Part shown: positions 3,745 through 40,539 of the stretch, in pieces
Layout: every line of letters starts with the position of its first letter
How positions within the stretch are numbered: position 1 is the stretch's first letter
Source of the DNA: Thermoleophilia bacterium
GTDB lineage: Bacteria > Actinomycetota > Thermoleophilia > Miltoncostaeales > Miltoncostaeaceae
DNA length: 45,028 nt
Assembly: GCA_025455865.1 (NCBI GenBank)
Contig: JALOLS010000037.1
Location: 5,941-50,968, forward strand
Direction of reading: 5' to 3'
Translations under genes and position numbers: made by a program
Notes under the pieces: model-generated
Seen by the model: the letters and a program-made list of their open reading frames with translations, nothing else
Told to the model about the DNA's origin: nothing
The model's database searches: none

Positions 3745-8391
<4,647 letters not shown>

Positions 8392-33240: not shown

Positions 33241-34461
33241 ATGGACCTCGACTTCTCAAGCCTCGCCCTGGTCACGGCGGCGGGCTTCCTCGCGCCCTTC
33301 TGCCTCGGGTTCGTCCCCGCGCTGCGGGTGCCGGCCATCGTGCTGGAGATCCTGCTCGGCATCCTGATCGGGCCGGACGTGCTCGGGTGGGCCGAGGTCG
33401 ATGCGGCGGTCGAGGTGATGAGCCTCGTCGGCCTGAGCTTCCTGCTGTTCCTGGCCGGCCTGGAGGTCGATGCACGGCAGCTCCGCGGCGCCCCGGCCCG
33501 GCGGGCCGGGGCGGCCTTCGCCGTCTCGATCGGCCTGGCGCTGCTGAGCGGCCTCGCCCTGGCCGGCGCCGGGCTGACGGGGGCGCCGCTGCTCGTGGCG
33601 GTCATCCTGATGGCCACCGGGCTGGGGGTCGTGGTGCCCGTGCTCAAGGACGCCGGGGCGGGCGGCGGGGCGTTCGGGCGCCTGGTCCTCGCCGGTGGGG
33701 CCCTCGCCGAGCTCATCCCGATCCTGCTCCTGACCCTCCTGTTCTCGGGCGAGTCGGCGTCGGCCGGCGGGACCGCGCTGCTCCTGGCCGGCCTCGTCGC
33801 CGTCGTCGCGGCCGCCGGCCTCGCCGTGGCGGGCGCCGGGCGCCTGCCCCGGGTCGGGGCGGTGCTGGAGCGCCTGCAGGACACCACCGCGCAGATCCGG
33901 GTGCGGGGCGCCCTGGTCCTCATCGTCGGCTTCGTCGCCCTCGCCGGCGGCCTCGGGCTGGAGGCCATCCTGGGGGCGTTCCTCGCCGGCGCGCTGCTCA
34001 GCCTGGTCGACCACGACCGGCGCATGACCCATCCGCGGCTGCGGGAGAAGCTCGAGGCGGCCGGCTACGGGGTCGTCATCCCGGTCTTCTTCGTGGCCAG
34101 CGGGATGCGCTTCGACCTGGACGCCCTGCTGGCGTCCCCGTCGGCGCTCGCCATGGTCCCGGTGTTCGCGGGCGCCATGCTCCTGGTGCACGGCCTGCCC
34201 GCCCTGCTCTACCGCCCCCTGGTGGGCGCCCGGCGCGCGGCCGCCGCGGGGCTCCTGCAGGCCACGACCTCGGTCGGGTTCGTGGTCGCCGCGACCGAGA
34301 TCGGGATGCAGACCGGCATGGTCGGGCCCGGCACGGGCGCGGCGCTCGTCTCCGCCGCGCTGGTGTCGGTGCTCATCTTCCCCGCCGCCGCGCTGGCCCT
34401 GCTGGGCCCCGCCGCGGCGACGCCGGCCGCCCGGCCCGCCCGATCGGCGCGGCCGGCGTAA
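33241..34461 (+). CDS. CPA2-type cation:proton antiporter
   Basis: 406 residues, about twelve membrane helices, of the Na+/H+ or K+/H+ exchanger family (KefB/NapA-like). Segments VPAIVLEILLGILIGPDVLGW, LSFLLFLAGLEVD (the substrate-binding acidic pair region), LVLAGGALAELIPILLL, and GLGLEAILGAFLAGALLS are characteristic. There is no C-terminal TrkA-N/RCK domain, so gating by NAD or glutathione as in Kef is unlikely. The ATG has no good ribosome binding site but sits 7 bp after a GGGACC block, so it may be leaderless. Ion specificity is unknown. Confidence 0.88.
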   Translation: MDLDFSSLALVTAAGFLAPFCLGFVPALRVPAIVLEILLGILIGPDVLGWAEVDAAVEVMSLVGLSFLLFLAGLEVDARQLRGAPARRAGAAFAVSIGLALLSGLALAGAGLTGAPLLVAVILMATGLGVVVPVLKDAGAGGGAFGRLVLAGGALAELIPILLLTLLFSGESASAGGTALLLAGLVAVVAAAGLAVAGAGRLPRVGAVLERLQDTTAQIRVRGALVLIVGFVALAGGLGLEAILGAFLAGALLSLVDHDRRMTHPRLREKLEAAGYGVVIPVFFVASGMRFDLDALLASPSALAMVPVFAGAMLLVHGLPALLYRPLVGARRAAAAGLLQATTSVGFVVAATEIGMQTGMVGPGTGAALVSAALVSVLIFPAAALALLGPAAATPAARPARSARPA

Positions 34462-34532: not shown

Positions 34533-34901
34533 ATGCCTTCGCTCACCCCCTCGCCGGCCGCCGAGGCGGCCCTCTCGGCGGCGCGCATCCGCGACATGGC
34601 CAGTGCGATGCTCGCCTACCAGTGCGACACCTGCCGCGGCGAGTTCGACGAGTCCACCGTCGAGGCCGTCCTCAAGCGCGCCGCGGCCAACACCCACGGC
34701 GAGGCCATCACCCCGGAGCTCGAGGCGGCGGTGCGGGCGGCCCGGCTGCGCGAGGAGGCGACCGCGCTGCTCGTCTACCACTGCACCACCTGCCGCGGCG
34801 AGTTCGACGAGGCGACCGTCGCGGCGGTGCTCAAGCGCGCCGCGGCCAACACCCACGGCGAGGCCATCACCCCGGAGCTCGAGGCCGCCCTCGCCGCCTG
34901 A
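34533..34901 (+). CDS. Protein of two 53-residue CxxC repeats, unknown function
   Basis: 122 residues, strong ribosome binding site (AAGGAG, 7 bp before ATG). Residues about 18-68 and 71-121 are tandem copies: ARIRDMASAMLAYQC... and ARLREEATALLVYHC..., each with C-x2-C-RGEFDE, a helix ending VLKRAAANTHGEAI and TPELEAA. Over their second halves the DNA of the copies is identical for more than 50 bp (159-bp offset), so the duplication is recent or kept alike. Each copy has two Cys and a conserved His; the two copies together could bind one or two metals, or act as redox thiols. It lies directly upstream of the ECF sigma gene. No family recognised. Confidence 0.8.
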   Translation: MPSLTPSPAAEAALSAARIRDMASAMLAYQCDTCRGEFDESTVEAVLKRAAANTHGEAITPELEAAVRAARLREEATALLVYHCTTCRGEFDEATVAAVLKRAAANTHGEAITPELEAALAA

Positions 34902-35005: not shown

Positions 35006-35644
35006 ATGGTGGGGGATCCCGGCGAGTCGAGGATCATCGAGGCGCTGCGGCAGGGCGACGAGCACGCGTTCGCCGCGATCGTCGACCGCCATCACGGGAC
35101 CATGCTCCGCCTGGCCCGGATCCACACCGGCTCCCAGGCCGTCGCGGAGGAGGTCGTCCAGGAGGCCTGGCTCGGGGTCATCCGCGGCATCGACCGGTTC
35201 GAGGGGCGCTCGTCGCTGCGCACCTGGATACTGCGGATCACGGTGAACACGGCCAAGACCCGCGCCGTGCGCGAACGGCGGACGATTCCGTTCTCGGCCT
35301 GGTGGGACCCGCACGACGATCGCGGGGAGCCGGCGGTGGACGCCGAGCGCTTCCTGCCCGCCGACCACGACCGGTGGCCGGGCCACTGGGCGGTCCCGCC
35401 CAGGGCCTGGGCCCAGCCGCCCGAGGGCGCCCTGATGGCGGCGGAGGTGCGCGACCTGATCGGACGCGCCATCGACGCGCTCCCGCCCGCCCAGCGCGAG
35501 GTCATCACCCTGCGCGACGTGGACGGCGTCCCGGCCGAGGATGTCTGCGCCGCCCTCGGCGTGAGCGAGGGCAACCAGCGGGTGCTGCTGCACCGCGCCC
35601 GCTCCCGGGTGCGGCGCGAGCTCGAGCGGTACCTGGACGGCTGA
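35006..35644 (+). CDS. ECF-type RNA polymerase sigma factor
   Basis: 212 residues. Sigma region 2 spans about 14-80 (DEHAFAAIVDRHHGTMLRLARIHTGSQAVAEEVVQEAWLGVIRGIDRFEGRSSLRTWILRI) and region 4 about 150-205 (IDALPPAQREVITLRDVDGVPAEDVCAALGVSEGNQRVLLHRARSRVR). The linker is long and Trp/Pro-rich. ATG 35006 has AGGGGGAG upstream. One base separates its stop from the next ATG, which encodes a zinc anti-sigma factor, so the pair is a classic signal-responsive unit. Confidence 0.95.
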   Translation: MVGDPGESRIIEALRQGDEHAFAAIVDRHHGTMLRLARIHTGSQAVAEEVVQEAWLGVIRGIDRFEGRSSLRTWILRITVNTAKTRAVRERRTIPFSAWWDPHDDRGEPAVDAERFLPADHDRWPGHWAVPPRAWAQPPEGALMAAEVRDLIGRAIDALPPAQREVITLRDVDGVPAEDVCAALGVSEGNQRVLLHRARSRVRRELERYLDG

Positions 35645-35645
35645 G

Positions 35646-35894
35646 ATGAGCCCGCCCGCCGACGACCTGCCCTGCATCGAGCTCGTCGAGATGGTGACCG
35701 ACTACCTCGAGGGCGCGCTGACCCCCGAGGCCCGCGGGCGCCTGGAGGCCCATCTGGAGATCTGCGGGGGCTGCGAGGCCTACGTGGAGCAGATCCGCGC
35801 GACGATCGCCGCCGCCGGCCGGACCGGCGAGGGATCCCCGCCGCCGGAGGTCCGAGCGTGGCTTCTGGAGCGGTTCCGGGAGGGCCGGGACTGA
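35646..35894 (+). CDS. Zinc-binding anti-sigma factor (zf-HC2/ZAS), soluble
   Basis: 82 residues. LEMVTDYLEGALTP-type helix (here VEMVTDYLEGALTPEARGRLEAHLEICGGCEAYVEQI) with the ZAS motif His-x3-Cys-x2-Cys at about 36-43. This domain clamps ECF sigma factors and in studied relatives lets go on thiol oxidation. There is no membrane segment, so it acts in the cytoplasm. Translationally linked to the sigma gene. Confidence 0.92.
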   Translation: MSPPADDLPCIELVEMVTDYLEGALTPEARGRLEAHLEICGGCEAYVEQIRATIAAAGRTGEGSPPPEVRAWLLERFREGRD

Positions 35895-35918: not shown

Positions 35919-37883
35919 TCACACCGGGCCCGCGGAACTCCTGACCTGCACGAGCGCCGGACGGTCGCCCACCGCGAACGCCTGCGCCAGGACCTCCTCC
36001 AGCCGGCCCGCATCCTCGACGCGGAAGCCGGCCGCCCCGCAGCTCTCGGCGTAGCCGGCGAAATCGGGGTTCACCAGCCCGGTCTGCCACACCGGCCGCA
36101 CGGCGGCCACCTGCTCGCGGCTGATCTTGGCCAGCTCGCCGTTGTCGAGCACGACATGCACGATCGGCATCCGGTGCCGCACCGCGGTGGTGAGCTCGGC
36201 CAGGTACTGACCGAGGCCCCCGTCCCCCGAGATCGACACCACCCGGCGCGCCCCCCGGGTGGCCGCCCATGCCCCGAGCGCCGCCGGCAGCGCGAAGCCG
36301 ATGGAGCCCAGGTAGCCGCTCATCAGGACGTCCTGGCCGCCGCGGCAGGTGAAGTAGTGGCCGAAGGCGTAGGTGTTGTTGCCGACGTCCACGCAGATGA
36401 CCGCGTCCTCGGGCACGAGCCGCGACAGGACGGTGAAGACCGCCGCCGGGTGCAGGGCGCCGCGGCCGTCGGTGAGCGCGGCCCGCCGCCCGACCTCGCG
36501 CTCCCACCGGGCGCGGCGCCGGGCGATCTCCTGGCGCAGCGCGGGCCGCTCGGCCGCCGGGAGCCCGTCGCGCATCAGGGCGACGGTCCGCGCGATCTCC
36601 CCCCACAGGGGGACGTCGACCGGGTGGAACTTGCCGAGGGTCATCGGGTCGAGGTCGACCTGCACCGTCGGCACCCACGTCGCGATGCCGGTGTGGTTCG
36701 AGAACGAGGCGCCGAGCACCAGCAGCGCGTCGGCGCGGGCCATCAGGGCGCTGCCGACCGGCGTGCCCGACCGGCCGATGACGCCGCCGGCCAGCGGGTG
36801 GTCCTCGGGGACCAGCCCCTTGGCCTTGAAGGTGGTGACCACCGGCGCGTCCAGGTGCTCGGCGAGCCCCAGCACCGCCGCCCGGTGCTCGCGGGCGCCG
36901 TTGCCGGCCACGATCAGCGGGCGCGCGGCCGCGCCCAGGAGCCGGATGGCGCGCTCCAGGTCCGCCTGCGGCGGTGCGATGTCGCGGGCCGCGATCCGTC
37001 CGGCGCGCGGCCGCGCCGGGGGATCCTCCAGCCCCGGCAGCTCCTGGACCTCGTCGGGGAGCACGAGGTGGGCCACCCCGCGGCGGACCATCGCGTGCTT
37101 CATCGCGAGCGCCGCCAGCTCGGTCGCGTTCTCGCGCCGGAGGACGGTCTGGCTCCACGCGGCCACCGCCGAGAACGCCTCGGCCAGCGGCACCTCCTGG
37201 AAGGCGCCCGGCCCGAGGACCTGGGTCTGCACCTGGCCGGTGAGGGCCAGCACCGGCGCGCGGTCGACATTGGCGTCCCACATCCCGGTGAGCAGGTTGG
37301 TCGCGCCGGGCCCGGCGATCGTGAGGCACGCCGCCGGACGGCCGGTGAGCTTGCCGTAGGCGCTCGCCGCGAAGGCCGCGGCCCCCTCGTGGCGGATGCC
37401 GACGTATGAGATCCGGCCGTCCTCCTCGGCCCGGCGGAGCGCATCCGCCATGCCGAGGTTGGAGTGGCCGACCATGCCGAAGACCGAGTCCAGGCCCCAC
37501 TCGCACAGGGTGTCGACCACCTGGTCCATGAGGGTCACCCGCCGCTCGGCGCGCGGCACCCGGACCCAGAGGCCGTCGGGGCGCTCCTCCACCCCGTAGG
37601 CGGTGGCGCAGTCGCGGAAGCCGGGCGGCGGGGCGCCGGTGACCGGGTCGTACTCATACCCGTGCCAGGGGCAGACGACGAAGCCCCCCTCCACCTGCCC
37701 GTCGCCCAGGGGACCGCCCTGGTGGGGGCAGCGGTTGTCCAGGGCGCCCCAGCCCCCGGCGCTGCGGGTCAGGCAGACCGCGCGCCCGCCGGCGACCACC
37801 GTGGTCACCTGGCCGGGCTCGAGGTCGCCGGCGTCCACGCGCACCCATTCCCATTCGGTCGCGTGTGCATCGGTGGTCGTCAC
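35919..37883 (-). CDS. Rieske domain fused to ThDP-dependent oxidase/decarboxylase
   Basis: 654 residues. Residues 10-110 are a Rieske 2Fe-2S domain: NRCPHQGGPLGDG with Cys52 and His54, VVCPWHGYEYD with Cys71 and His74. From about 117 a complete pyruvate oxidase/acetolactate synthase-like protein follows: MDQVVDTLCEWG, GIRHEGAAAFAASAYGKLTG (catalytic Glu), GPGATNLLTGMWDANVDRAPVLALTGQV, the central domain (PLIVAGNGAREH, VVTTFKAKGLVPEDHPL), and the ThDP site SISGDGGLGQYLAELTTAVRHRMPIVHVVLDN. Decarboxylation of a 2-oxo acid with electrons passed to the Rieske centre is a reasonable guess. GTG 37883 overlaps the preceding stop by 4 bp; last gene of a three-gene operon. Confidence 0.88.
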   Translation of the reverse strand: MTTTDAHATEWEWVRVDAGDLEPGQVTTVVAGGRAVCLTRSAGGWGALDNRCPHQGGPLGDGQVEGGFVVCPWHGYEYDPVTGAPPPGFRDCATAYGVEERPDGLWVRVPRAERRVTLMDQVVDTLCEWGLDSVFGMVGHSNLGMADALRRAEEDGRISYVGIRHEGAAAFAASAYGKLTGRPAACLTIAGPGATNLLTGMWDANVDRAPVLALTGQVQTQVLGPGAFQEVPLAEAFSAVAAWSQTVLRRENATELAALAMKHAMVRRGVAHLVLPDEVQELPGLEDPPARPRAGRIAARDIAPPQADLERAIRLLGAAARPLIVAGNGAREHRAAVLGLAEHLDAPVVTTFKAKGLVPEDHPLAGGVIGRSGTPVGSALMARADALLVLGASFSNHTGIATWVPTVQVDLDPMTLGKFHPVDVPLWGEIARTVALMRDGLPAAERPALRQEIARRRARWEREVGRRAALTDGRGALHPAAVFTVLSRLVPEDAVICVDVGNNTYAFGHYFTCRGGQDVLMSGYLGSIGFALPAALGAWAATRGARRVVSISGDGGLGQYLAELTTAVRHRMPIVHVVLDNGELAKISREQVAAVRPVWQTGLVNPDFAGYAESCGAAGFRVEDAGRLEEVLAQAFAVGDRPALVQVRSSAGPV

Positions 37884-38914
37884 TCGGTCTCCTCCGGTCG
37901 GTCTGCCAGCCGCGCGAGCGCCGCGCGGAAGAAGTCCAGCGCCCGGCCGCGCTGGTCCGGCGCGGCCCTCAGCGCGGCCAGGGTGAGCTCCGCCCCGCGG
38001 AAGCCGCGGGCGGCGAACTGCGGGTCGTCCGGGACCTCGCCCCAGGGGGCCACGTACAGGTACGGCTCCGGGTGGACCTCGTCCCCCGGTGAGGCGCCGA
38101 CCGACGCGCGCGCGCCCGCCATCTGGTCGCCCAGCTCGACGGCCAGGTCGAAATGCTCGGGCCAGAGCTGGACGCGGGTCGCCCCGCCGTCGGGCGCCCC
38201 GGCCCGGAGCTCCTCCAGCACCGAGCAGGCGAAGCCGAACCACCCGCCCAGCCAGTCGGCGGCCGCCGGGTCGACGGCGAGCGGGGCCCCGAGGTCACCC
38301 GGCGGGGGCGCGCCGGCCTGGTCCTGGACGGCGAGGCCGGGCTCGACGCCGGCCGCCGCGGCCGCGGCCGCCAGGGTCGTGATGTCGTGGGCCCGGGCGC
38401 GGCCGGCCCGCTGCACCACCAGGCGCGCCCCGACGACGCGCACCTGCACGTCGTCGCCGAAGAAGGGCGTCCCGAAGCCGCCGAGGGTCCAGCGCAGCCC
38501 GATCCGGCCGGTCTCTGCCCACCGGGCGGGCGAGACGACCGTGACGGCCAGGCGGTGCAGGGCGAGGCGGGTCGCCGCCAGGCCTGGCGGGGGCGGGGTC
38601 AGGCGCGGCCAGGCCGCAAGCCACCGGGGCGCGCACCAGGCCGCAAGCGCCGGGTCGTCCCGGGCGAGCGCCGCCCAGGTGGGACCGGGGCCGGGCACCG
38701 GGGAGACCGGCGCGGCCGCGCCCTCGGGGTCGACGGGGTCGTCCGCCGCCCAGGGGCCGGCCGGCACGGCCGGCGGCGAGGGCTCGAGCACCCGCGCCGC
38801 GACGCCGCCCAGACGGGCCTCCGCCTCGGCGCGCGGGTTCCGCGCCGACTCACGATCCGGGGCGCTCATCGGGGACACGACGTCCGGGCGGGGCCCGCCG
38901 GGCGCGGCCGGCAT
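37880..38914 (-). CDS. Hypothetical protein of the twin-Rieske operon
   Basis: 344 residues from ATG 38914, which shares its A with the TGA stop of the Rieske-FMN gene (TGATG). The first 75 residues are Pro/Ala-rich. The core has conserved-looking segments RIGLRWTLGGFGTPFFGDDVQVRV, DWLGGWFGFACSVLEEL, VQLWPEHFDLAVELGDQ and HPEPYLYVAPWGEVP; the Trp, His and acidic residues in the last two suggest a ligand or metal pocket. No signal peptide, no membrane segment. I cannot name a family. Its tight coupling on both sides says it works with the two Rieske enzymes. Confidence 0.75.
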   Translation of the reverse strand: MPAAPGGPRPDVVSPMSAPDRESARNPRAEAEARLGGVAARVLEPSPPAVPAGPWAADDPVDPEGAAAPVSPVPGPGPTWAALARDDPALAAWCAPRWLAAWPRLTPPPPGLAATRLALHRLAVTVVSPARWAETGRIGLRWTLGGFGTPFFGDDVQVRVVGARLVVQRAGRARAHDITTLAAAAAAAGVEPGLAVQDQAGAPPPGDLGAPLAVDPAAADWLGGWFGFACSVLEELRAGAPDGGATRVQLWPEHFDLAVELGDQMAGARASVGASPGDEVHPEPYLYVAPWGEVPDDPQFAARGFRGAELTLAALRAAPDQRGRALDFFRAALARLADRPEETE

Positions 38915-40539
38915 CAGAGCGCCCACGCGATGCCGGTGGCGTCGGCCAGGTCGCGGCTGGTGGTGACCAGGTCGTCCCGGCCCAGGTCACCCAGCCGGCG
39001 CCGGCCGCAGATGCGCGCGTAGTCGACCATCATCGCGGTGGCCGAGGTCAGGTACCGCTCCACGCGGCGGGCGGACTCGCCGACCTCGAGACGATCGCGC
39101 AGGCCCGGATCCTGAGTGGCGATCCCCACCGGGCAGCGCCCCCGGTGGCAGGCCCGGTACTGCTGGCACCCCGCCGCCATGAGCGCCCCGGTCGCCAGGG
39201 CGACGGCGTCGGCGCCGAGCGCGAGGGCCTTGGCCATCTCATCCGGCGTCCGGAAGCCGCCGGTCACCACGATCTGCACGTCCTCCACGCCCTGGGCCTC
39301 GAGCCAGCGGCGGGCGCGCACGAGCGCGAGCGCCGACGGCAGCCCCACGTGGTCCTTCACGTGCAGGGGGGCCGCCCCGGTGCCGCCGCCGAGCCCGTCG
39401 ATGGTCACCCAGTCCGCCCCGGCGCCGACCGCCACCTCGAGGTCGGCCTCGACATCGCCGGCCGCGAACTTGATGCCGACGGGTGCGCCGGGCACGAGCT
39501 CACGGATCTCCCGCACGCACCGCGCGAGGTCGGCAGGCCCCTCGATGCCGGTCAGCCGCGCCGGGGAGTGGACGTCCATCCCCGGGGCGACGCCGCGCAC
39601 GGCCGCGATCTCGGCGGTCACCTTGTCGCCGAGCAGGGTGCCCCCGAGGCCCGGCTTGGCCCCCTGGCCGATCTTGATCTCCACCGCGTGCGCCCGGCGC
39701 GCGTTCTCGGGCGTCCAGCCGAAGCGGCCCGAGGCGAGCTCCAGGATGTGGCGCGCGGCGTTCGCGCGCTCGCGGGGGTGGGGGCCTCCCTCCCCGCTCC
39801 CGATCGCGGTCCCGGCCGCCGAGGCGCCGCGGGCCAGCGCCTCCTTCGCCTCCGGGCTCAGCGCCCCGTAGGACATGTGGCTGACGAGCAGGGGGATCGC
39901 CAGGCGGAGCGGACGGGCGGCGCGCGAGCCGAGGACGACCCGCGTGTCCACCTCCTCCTCCCCGAGCAGCGGGAGCCGCGCGAGCTGGGCCGGGCGGAAG
40001 AGCAGGTCGTGCAGCCCCGGGGCGGCGGCGGGGGTGCCGGGGGGCTCCCGGAGCGCCGAGCCCATCGCCCCGATCTCGGGGGCGCCGCCGGCGGCCAGGT
40101 GGTGCACCAGGTGCATCCCGCGGTCCCGGGCGCCGCGGCGGATCCACGGGCCCAGGTAGACGTCCGGACGCGGCGGCGCCGGGGGGACCTGGGCGGCGTC
40201 GACCTCCACGCGGCCGTCGCGGACGCGGACGGGGTAGACCGGCACCCGGTCGGCCGGGTCGTAGGGCGAGATGCCCGTCTCCAGGTCGAAGTCCCACCCG
40301 TGGAGGGGGCAGATCGCCCGCCCGCCCTCCACCCGGCCGTCGCCGAGCTGCCCCCCGCGATGCGGGCAGGCGTTCCCGATGGCGTGGACCCGGTCCCCGT
40401 CGCGCATCAGCGCCACCTCGGCGCCGTTCACCGTCCGCACCAGCCCGGCCCGGGGCGCGATCTCCTCCATGCGGCACACCTCGGTCCACCCGGCGGCCTG
40501 GTCCCGGGCGGGCCGCCCCGCCTCGCCGGTCATCGCCAT
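38914..40539 (-). CDS. Rieske domain fused to FMN-binding glutamate synthase-like domain
   Basis: 541 residues. Rieske domain at 18-115: ACPHRGGQLGDG (Cys58, His60) and AICPLHGWDFD (Cys77, His80). From about 165 the FMN barrel of glutamate synthase: LLVSHMSYGALSPEAKEALARG, GSGEGG, EIKIGQGAKPGLGGTLLGDKV, TIDGLGGGTGAAP, VVTGGFRTPDEMAKALALGADAVALATG, and the 3Fe-4S motif C-x5-C-x4-C (CQQYRACHRGRCPVGIATQ). It has no glutaminase domain and no beta-helix, so ammonia or another amine would have to come from elsewhere if it makes an amino acid. First gene of the operon; AGGGGG precedes ATG 40539, with ATG 40533 possible. Confidence 0.9.
   Translation of the reverse strand: MAMTGEAGRPARDQAAGWTEVCRMEEIAPRAGLVRTVNGAEVALMRDGDRVHAIGNACPHRGGQLGDGRVEGGRAICPLHGWDFDLETGISPYDPADRVPVYPVRVRDGRVEVDAAQVPPAPPRPDVYLGPWIRRGARDRGMHLVHHLAAGGAPEIGAMGSALREPPGTPAAAPGLHDLLFRPAQLARLPLLGEEEVDTRVVLGSRAARPLRLAIPLLVSHMSYGALSPEAKEALARGASAAGTAIGSGEGGPHPRERANAARHILELASGRFGWTPENARRAHAVEIKIGQGAKPGLGGTLLGDKVTAEIAAVRGVAPGMDVHSPARLTGIEGPADLARCVREIRELVPGAPVGIKFAAGDVEADLEVAVGAGADWVTIDGLGGGTGAAPLHVKDHVGLPSALALVRARRWLEAQGVEDVQIVVTGGFRTPDEMAKALALGADAVALATGALMAAGCQQYRACHRGRCPVGIATQDPGLRDRLEVGESARRVERYLTSATAMMVDYARICGRRRLGDLGRDDLVTTSRDLADATGIAWAL

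Follow-up and report, generated by a model that had tools for sequence, protein, structure and literature searches.

The window analysed here is a 45,028-nucleotide stretch of DNA from a Thermoleophilia bacterium (assembly GCA_025455865.1, contig JALOLS010000037.1, positions 5,941 to 50,968 of the forward strand), and our subject is a set of three of its genes, in which a flavin mononucleotide (FMN)-dependent glutamate-synthase-like protein and a thiamine diphosphate (ThDP)-dependent 2-oxo-acid oxidase-like protein each carry a Rieske domain. The three genes, all on the minus strand, occupy the position given in an earlier model-made annotation (the original prediction), and the tight coupling through TGATG and GTGA overlaps described there can be read directly in the sequence, the junction letters being 'gctcTGATGccg' and 'accgaGTGAcg'. 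The genes and their domains are as follows.

38914..40539, minus strand: Rieske-FMN/[3Fe-4S] glutamate-synthase-like protein, 541 amino acids (PF00355 8e-17, PF01645 2e-101)
40195..40491, minus strand: Rieske [2Fe-2S] domain of the FMN protein, residues 17-115 (ligands C58, H60, C77, H80)
39016..39930, minus strand: FMN/[3Fe-4S] synthase domain, residues 204-508
37880..38914, minus strand: middle gene, ATG start at 38914, predicted divergent DUF5996-superfamily protein of 344 amino acids (DUF5996 by hhalign)
35919..37883, minus strand: Rieske-ThDP 2-oxo-acid oxidase-like protein, 654 amino acids (PF00355, PF02776, PF00205, PF02775)
37554..37835, minus strand: Rieske [2Fe-2S] domain of the ThDP protein (ligands C52, H54, C71, H74)
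35943..37535, minus strand: ThDP enzyme core, residues 117-647 (Glu166, F228-Q229, D554, K586, E590-Q591)

Both fusions proved to be what the original prediction had named, a Rieske-FMN/3Fe-4S synthase and a Rieske-ThDP oxidase-like protein, with Pfam domains, cluster ligands and catalytic motifs intact. The Rieske match of the FMN protein spans residues 18-102 and its Glu_synthase match residues 204-508, while the ThDP protein combines a Rieske match (1e-13) with three TPP_enzyme domains (1e-32 to 1e-33). Both Rieske domains score above the Pfam cut-off and keep the CxH..CxxH ligand pattern, as CPH..CPLH and CPH..CPWH in the two window proteins. Within the FMN domain the three [3Fe-4S] cysteines (C458, C464, C469) are spaced as in solved glutamate synthases and are, together with K295 and R315, invariant in 22 relatives. 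The latter two align to K972 and R992 of Synechocystis Fd-GltS, which we take to act in 2-oxoglutarate binding, and the position of Gln978 in that enzyme is occupied by T, L, V or H in the FMN enzyme and its relatives. Glutaminase and GXGXG domains are absent from the FMN protein, and none was recognised among the immediate neighbours, some of which were scanned with Pfam. The AlphaFold model consists of two folded parts separated by a low-confidence linker at residues 122-138, between Rieske and FMN domains; this fits a tethered mobile carrier, although it is not proof of one.

The ThDP protein contains complete N, M and C domains, the catalytic Glu166 and the GDG-motif Asp554, the latter two residues being invariant in the aligned relatives. 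Its nearest solved chain is E. coli PoxB (E 2e-68), with which the middle domain aligns throughout, a match suggestive of FAD binding. Thirty Rieske-ThDP loci were collected from bacteria and from haloarchaeal and mycobacterial plasmids, all 30 with the four Rieske ligands, and the mean column identity over 19 aligned proteins is 67%. In 17 of these 19 a Lys stands at the position of Phe479 of Lactobacillus POX (LpPOX; presumed numbering), and the substrate pocket would therefore be unlike that of known pyruvate oxidases. An origin of the ThDP gene in viruses or phages was rejected, since no relative was found in viral_contigs.

The pairing of the two enzymes is real and far above chance. In the class sample of 299 genomes, 11 encode the Rieske-ThDP protein and 4 a full-length Rieske-FMN protein, and all 4 of the latter encode both (two genomes with broken or split Rieske-FMN copies, G020 and G062, were left out of the count). 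The corresponding numbers in the phylum sample of 396 genomes are 10, 7 and 5, the Rieske part of G566 included. With the window's own genome removed, the pairing was still found in 3/3 (class) and 4/6 (phylum) of the Rieske-FMN genomes, corresponding to hypergeometric p values of 2.7e-5 and 1.9e-6. These serve as guides rather than exact values, since the window's relatives appear in both samples and kinship among genomes makes them non-independent.

The FMN and ThDP genes are also physically adjacent in G013 (divergently oriented), G176, G538, G566, a Microthrixaceae locus (L036) and a Pirellulales locus (L040), and they share plasmids in the haloarchaea Salinirubellus, Halorarius and Halorubrum; both fusions have homologues in further families, in further phyla and in a second domain of life, frequently side by side. 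Among 26 independent ThDP loci, collected through the ThDP protein only and blind to the FMN gene, an FMN gene lies within 7 kb of 6 and a member of the middle-gene family within 7 kb of 8. Conserved neighbourhood, the rarity of which the original prediction had held to speak against a joint system, was consequently found for pairs of genes. Its joint three-gene system stood only in part: the FMN/ThDP pair is conserved, but the full set of three was encountered only in the window, in G176 (with a true DUF5996 protein) and in G566. The haloarchaeal ThDP copies cluster with G176 and the haloarchaeal FMN copies with G176 and G301, and the window and Microthrixaceae copies group together in both trees; this concordance is consistent with joint inheritance and transfer. 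On the haloarchaeal plasmids (L135-L138 and L140) the pair lies amid DsrE, TauE, rhodanese, mercuric-reductase-like, NAD(P)H-hydrate epimerase and DUF3179 genes.

Among 84,980 species genomes, close relatives of the FMN protein (59-68% identity) were found in Microthrixaceae and other Actinomycetota, and remoter ones in Chlorobi, Clostridia, Acidobacteria, Planctomycetes and Methanobrevibacter. The N-terminus of the protein varies by group: actinobacterial and haloarchaeal proteins carry a Rieske domain there, those of Chlorobi, Clostridia, Acidobacteria and Methanobrevibacter one or two rubredoxin domains, and planctomycete ones a membrane helix. In the FMN-domain tree, built by a quick method without bootstrap, a branch with support 97 sets the proteins with these three N-termini apart, beside MgsC-like proteins, and the Rieske-FMN proteins group together (support 88, not starred) and divide into two clear subclades.

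The N-terminal domain changes in step in the two enzymes. G632 and G639 encode a rubredoxin-ThDP and then a rubredoxin-FMN protein in tandem, with a separate Fer4_19-CDGSH gene adjoining, and the planctomycetes G663 and G672 have a near-identical N-terminal membrane helix on both proteins (e.g. MTPLTNAVLGLLFLSVGLVATVLMFYLRG and MDPLFNTILGVVFLGLGVAATVIMYRLRG); the remaining groups have the twin Rieske domains. The original prediction mentioned neither these rubredoxin and membrane-anchor forms nor the ECF-sigma and antiporter neighbours described below. This exchange in step, although it comprises few independent events, is the strongest sign that the FMN and ThDP enzymes share an electron partner or exchange electrons. 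The rubredoxin carriers would belong to anaerobes, judging from lineage.

Further loci illustrate the range of architectures. L208 and L209, with the tandem rubredoxin pair and a separate Fer4_19-CDGSH gene, are the rubredoxin counterpart of the window pair, and the nearly identical membrane helix is carried by the planctomycete ThDP and FMN proteins of L190, L191, L040 and L056. Four actinobacterial ThDP proteins have extra Fer4_19 and CDGSH domains ahead of the Rieske domain, giving single chains of 807-882 amino acids (L122, L126, L170 and L171, in G109, G133, G383 and G393) that are extreme cases of iron-sulphur fusion. A rubredoxin-ThDP protein of 584 amino acids with 40% identity to the ThDP part of the window protein is encoded in G443 (L150:744-2495), where an FMN partner was not found at the threshold used.

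The protein encoded between the two fusions did not match Pfam directly, its DUF5996 score remaining below the gathering threshold of 25 bits. Comparison of its family with DUF5996 (PF19459) in hhalign gave a probability of 97.6% (E 3.7e-12, 221 columns), the homologue in the equivalent operon of G176 matches DUF5996 at 5.6e-22, and the sequence at L120 bridges the two families. By profile comparison, then, the middle protein is a divergent member of the DUF5996 superfamily. The ATG at 38914 gives 344 amino acids and an in-frame GTG at 38926 would give 348; several homologues start nearer residue 20, leaving the true start uncertain. The AlphaFold model has a pLDDT (predicted local distance difference test) of 87.8, and neither a PDB structure match at E<=0.001 nor a convincing sequence relative was found among solved structures. 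W255, F259, D260, G277, G281 and D282 are invariant in the family and E257, H258 and R273 nearly so, a conservation that suggests a binding or active site. Members of the family commonly occur without the other two genes (the family is present in 33/299 class genomes), and one stands beside an FMN gene at L037. True DUF5996 genes were seen in relatives at L174-L183, L184 and L186, and the DUF5996 copy of the window's own genome (C120) is split across two frames, perhaps by a frameshift.

Three neighbours of the operon, all on the opposite strand, recur elsewhere.

35646..35894, plus strand: zf-HC2 zinc anti-sigma-like protein, converging on the ThDP gene (PF13490 1.3e-9)
35006..35644, plus strand: extracytoplasmic function (ECF) sigma factor, adjoining the anti-sigma gene (Sigma70_r2 3e-16, r4_2 1.2e-15)
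33241..34461, plus strand: cation:proton antiporter, Na_H_Exchanger, KefB/CPA2-like (PF00999 8.5e-47)

Antiporters lie within 7 kb in 7 of the 26 independent ThDP loci, against 0.8 expected from their frequency in the window's own genome (Poisson p 2e-5); this count is somewhat favourable, as some of these neighbours went into the antiporter model itself, although the matches are strong and several of the contigs are short, a bias in the opposite direction. The sigma/anti-sigma pair recurs in 4/26 (L084, L124, L125 and L165), and at least one of FMN gene, middle gene, antiporter and sigma pair is found in 16/26. A peroxiredoxin gene is a neighbour at L119, rubrerythrin genes stand beside rubredoxin-FMN at L042, L055 and L058, and DHFR/RibD_C-family genes occur beside the FMN or ThDP gene in unrelated organisms (L036:9982-10629, L136:14373-14858, L138:16646-17128 and L215:6547-7017). 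As genomic context, these recurring neighbours suggest redox or electrophile stress. Between antiporter and sigma factor, at 34608-34901, the window encodes a 97-residue protein with two similar copies of a short CxxC unit (YQCDTCRGEFDESTVEAVLKRAAANTHGEAITPELEAA), for which zero Pfam families scored above cut-off. A canonical full-length GltB-like glutamate synthase of 1548 amino acids is encoded at 3745-8391, so that the Rieske-FMN protein is not the only glutamate-synthase-type protein of the host.

The reading that we prefer, with a probability of roughly 0.5, is that of a conserved, stress-linked redox module with the Rieske-ThDP enzyme as its hub and the FMN enzyme as a facultative member served by the same one-electron carrier. 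The ThDP enzyme, which by analogy with its pyruvate-oxidase relatives probably binds FAD (flavin adenine dinucleotide), would oxidatively decarboxylate a 2-oxo acid, most likely pyruvate or a near analogue, and single electrons would leave it via the tethered Rieske cluster. Since a tethered one-electron domain of this class is also found on the FMN enzyme, the two would share a carrier or docking partner; in hosts that have both, electrons may pass from the ThDP to the FMN enzyme, which would reduce a substrate of the imine or oxo-acid type. The DUF5996-like protein would be an accessory, and the adjacent ECF sigma/zinc anti-sigma pair probably governs expression. The assignment of hub and facultative member follows from the sampled Rieske-ThDP genomes, more than half of which are without the FMN enzyme.

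Several observations weigh against this module. The Rieske-ThDP protein occurs without Rieske-FMN in 7/11 class and 5/10 phylum genomes, several of them near-complete, and the FMN enzyme therefore cannot be the sole acceptor. Conversely, G402 and G301 encode Rieske-FMN without Rieske-ThDP. Carriers are mixed in G674, which combines Rieske-ThDP with rubredoxin-FMN. The Rieske domains of the FMN and ThDP proteins form separate clades, and a common origin of the two window domains by duplication gave p 0.51 in the approximately unbiased (AU) test, so that common origin is neither supported nor rejected. The stress link, finally, is read entirely from neighbouring genes.

A more general formulation, which we put forward tentatively and hold to be less probable than the hub-centred module, is a modular partnership in which unrelated flavo- and ThDP enzymes co-evolve with the same exchangeable one-electron domain and couple 2-oxo-acid oxidation directly to FMN/[3Fe-4S] reduction, without NAD(P)H or soluble ferredoxin. 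The carrier would be Rieske in aerobes, rubredoxin in probable anaerobes and a shared membrane anchor in Planctomycetes, with CDGSH/Fer4_19 as an optional extra. The original prediction proposed a dedicated chain, in which ThDP-dependent decarboxylation could deliver electrons via the Rieske centres to an FMN enzyme that could reductively aminate or otherwise convert the product. The overlapping tandem genes, the co-occurrence statistics, the carrier domains in step and the joint transfer to haloarchaea agree with such a chain, but as an obligate pathway it is unlikely: the frequent occurrence of either enzyme without the other, also in near-complete genomes, does not accord with it, and rubredoxin-FMN is likewise found without a fused ThDP enzyme in Chlorobi, Clostridia and Methanobrevibacter. 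Moreover, the FMN protein is without a glutaminase or ammonia-channelling domain, and its planctomycete form is without a Rieske domain.

Less probable still is a role in osmolyte supply during salt or pH stress, in which the FMN enzyme would form glutamate from free ammonium and 2-oxoglutarate, drawing its electrons from the oxidation of 2-oxo acids, while the antiporter adjusts K+ and pH. The invariant K295 and R315, with their presumed part in 2-oxoglutarate binding, the antiporters at 7/26 loci and the haloarchaeal plasmid location would suit it, but the third residue, equivalent to Gln978, is replaced, no glutaminase partner was recognised near the pair, and the host has its canonical GltB in the same window. 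We consider it similarly doubtful that the Rieske and rubredoxin domains are redox or oxygen sensors switching each enzyme rather than electron carriers. The sigma/anti-sigma pair, the peroxiredoxin and rubrerythrin neighbours and the CDGSH/Fer4_19 partners do suggest oxidative stress; electron transfer is nevertheless the simpler account, because each of the two parent enzyme families requires a route by which single electrons leave or enter. That two unrelated metabolic genes are neighbours by coincidence is very improbable. Genomes with the full trio are few and those with a single gene many, as coincidence would have it, but the co-occurrence p values of at most about 1e-5, gene adjacency that recurs in several families and in a second domain, and the matching carrier swaps speak otherwise; a chance neighbourhood was rejected on the co-occurrence statistics and the repeated adjacency.

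Two enzyme families that normally depend on NAD(P)H, ferredoxin or quinone have thus gained matched, built-in one-electron carriers in several lineages, and, if electrons pass between the two, a nicotinamide-free route would lead from 2-oxo-acid oxidation to reductive chemistry. Functional context is thereby offered to many database entries labelled only 'glutamate synthase-related protein' or 'thiamine pyrophosphate-binding protein', and, for the first time, to the DUF5996 superfamily, of which the window member has a predicted fold unmatched in solved structures. No description was found in the open-access literature of Rieske domains with glutamate synthase, pyruvate oxidase, acetolactate synthase, CDGSH or rubredoxin, nor of DUF5996, which within that scope is weak evidence.

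Compared with known systems, the middle protein shares with DUF5996 (PF19459) the profile-profile match of its family and differs in an extra N-terminal region and in having no Pfam match of its own. The ThDP protein resembles the pyruvate oxidases (E. coli PoxB, Lactobacillus SpxB/POX, PRK08611) in its ThDP domains, the catalytic Glu, the F-Q pair and a Glu equivalent to LpPOX Glu483. It differs from them in the N-terminal Rieske domain and the Lys in place of Phe479, misses the NCBIfam equivalog cut-offs (PRK08611, 385 vs 742 bits; PRK09124, 307 vs 792 bits), and its alignment with PoxB ends ahead of the C-terminal tail of the latter. With the synthase domain of GltB/Fd-GltS, the FMN protein has in common the FMN barrel, the [3Fe-4S] cysteines and the Lys972/Arg992 equivalents, whereas the glutaminase and GXGXG domains are missing, the Gln978 position is not conserved, a Rieske domain is added and the score is 191 bits against a cut-off of 1047; identity as a conventional glutamate synthase was rejected on the missing glutaminase domain and the canonical GltB elsewhere in the window. 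N-methylglutamate synthase MgsC is close (40-47% identity), the Rieske/rubredoxin-FMN clade branching beside MgsC-like proteins, but the clade is separate and no MgsA or MgsB stands beside the window gene, and on these two grounds that identity was likewise rejected; by inspection, MgsA/B-like genes adjoin L086/L087. The rubredoxin-fused FMN proteins of Chlorobi, Clostridia and Methanobrevibacter have the same FMN domain (about 42-52% identity) behind an N-terminal one-electron Fe-S domain. They differ in that rubredoxin replaces Rieske and in mostly having no fused ThDP partner, except in G632 and G639, where the two stand in tandem.

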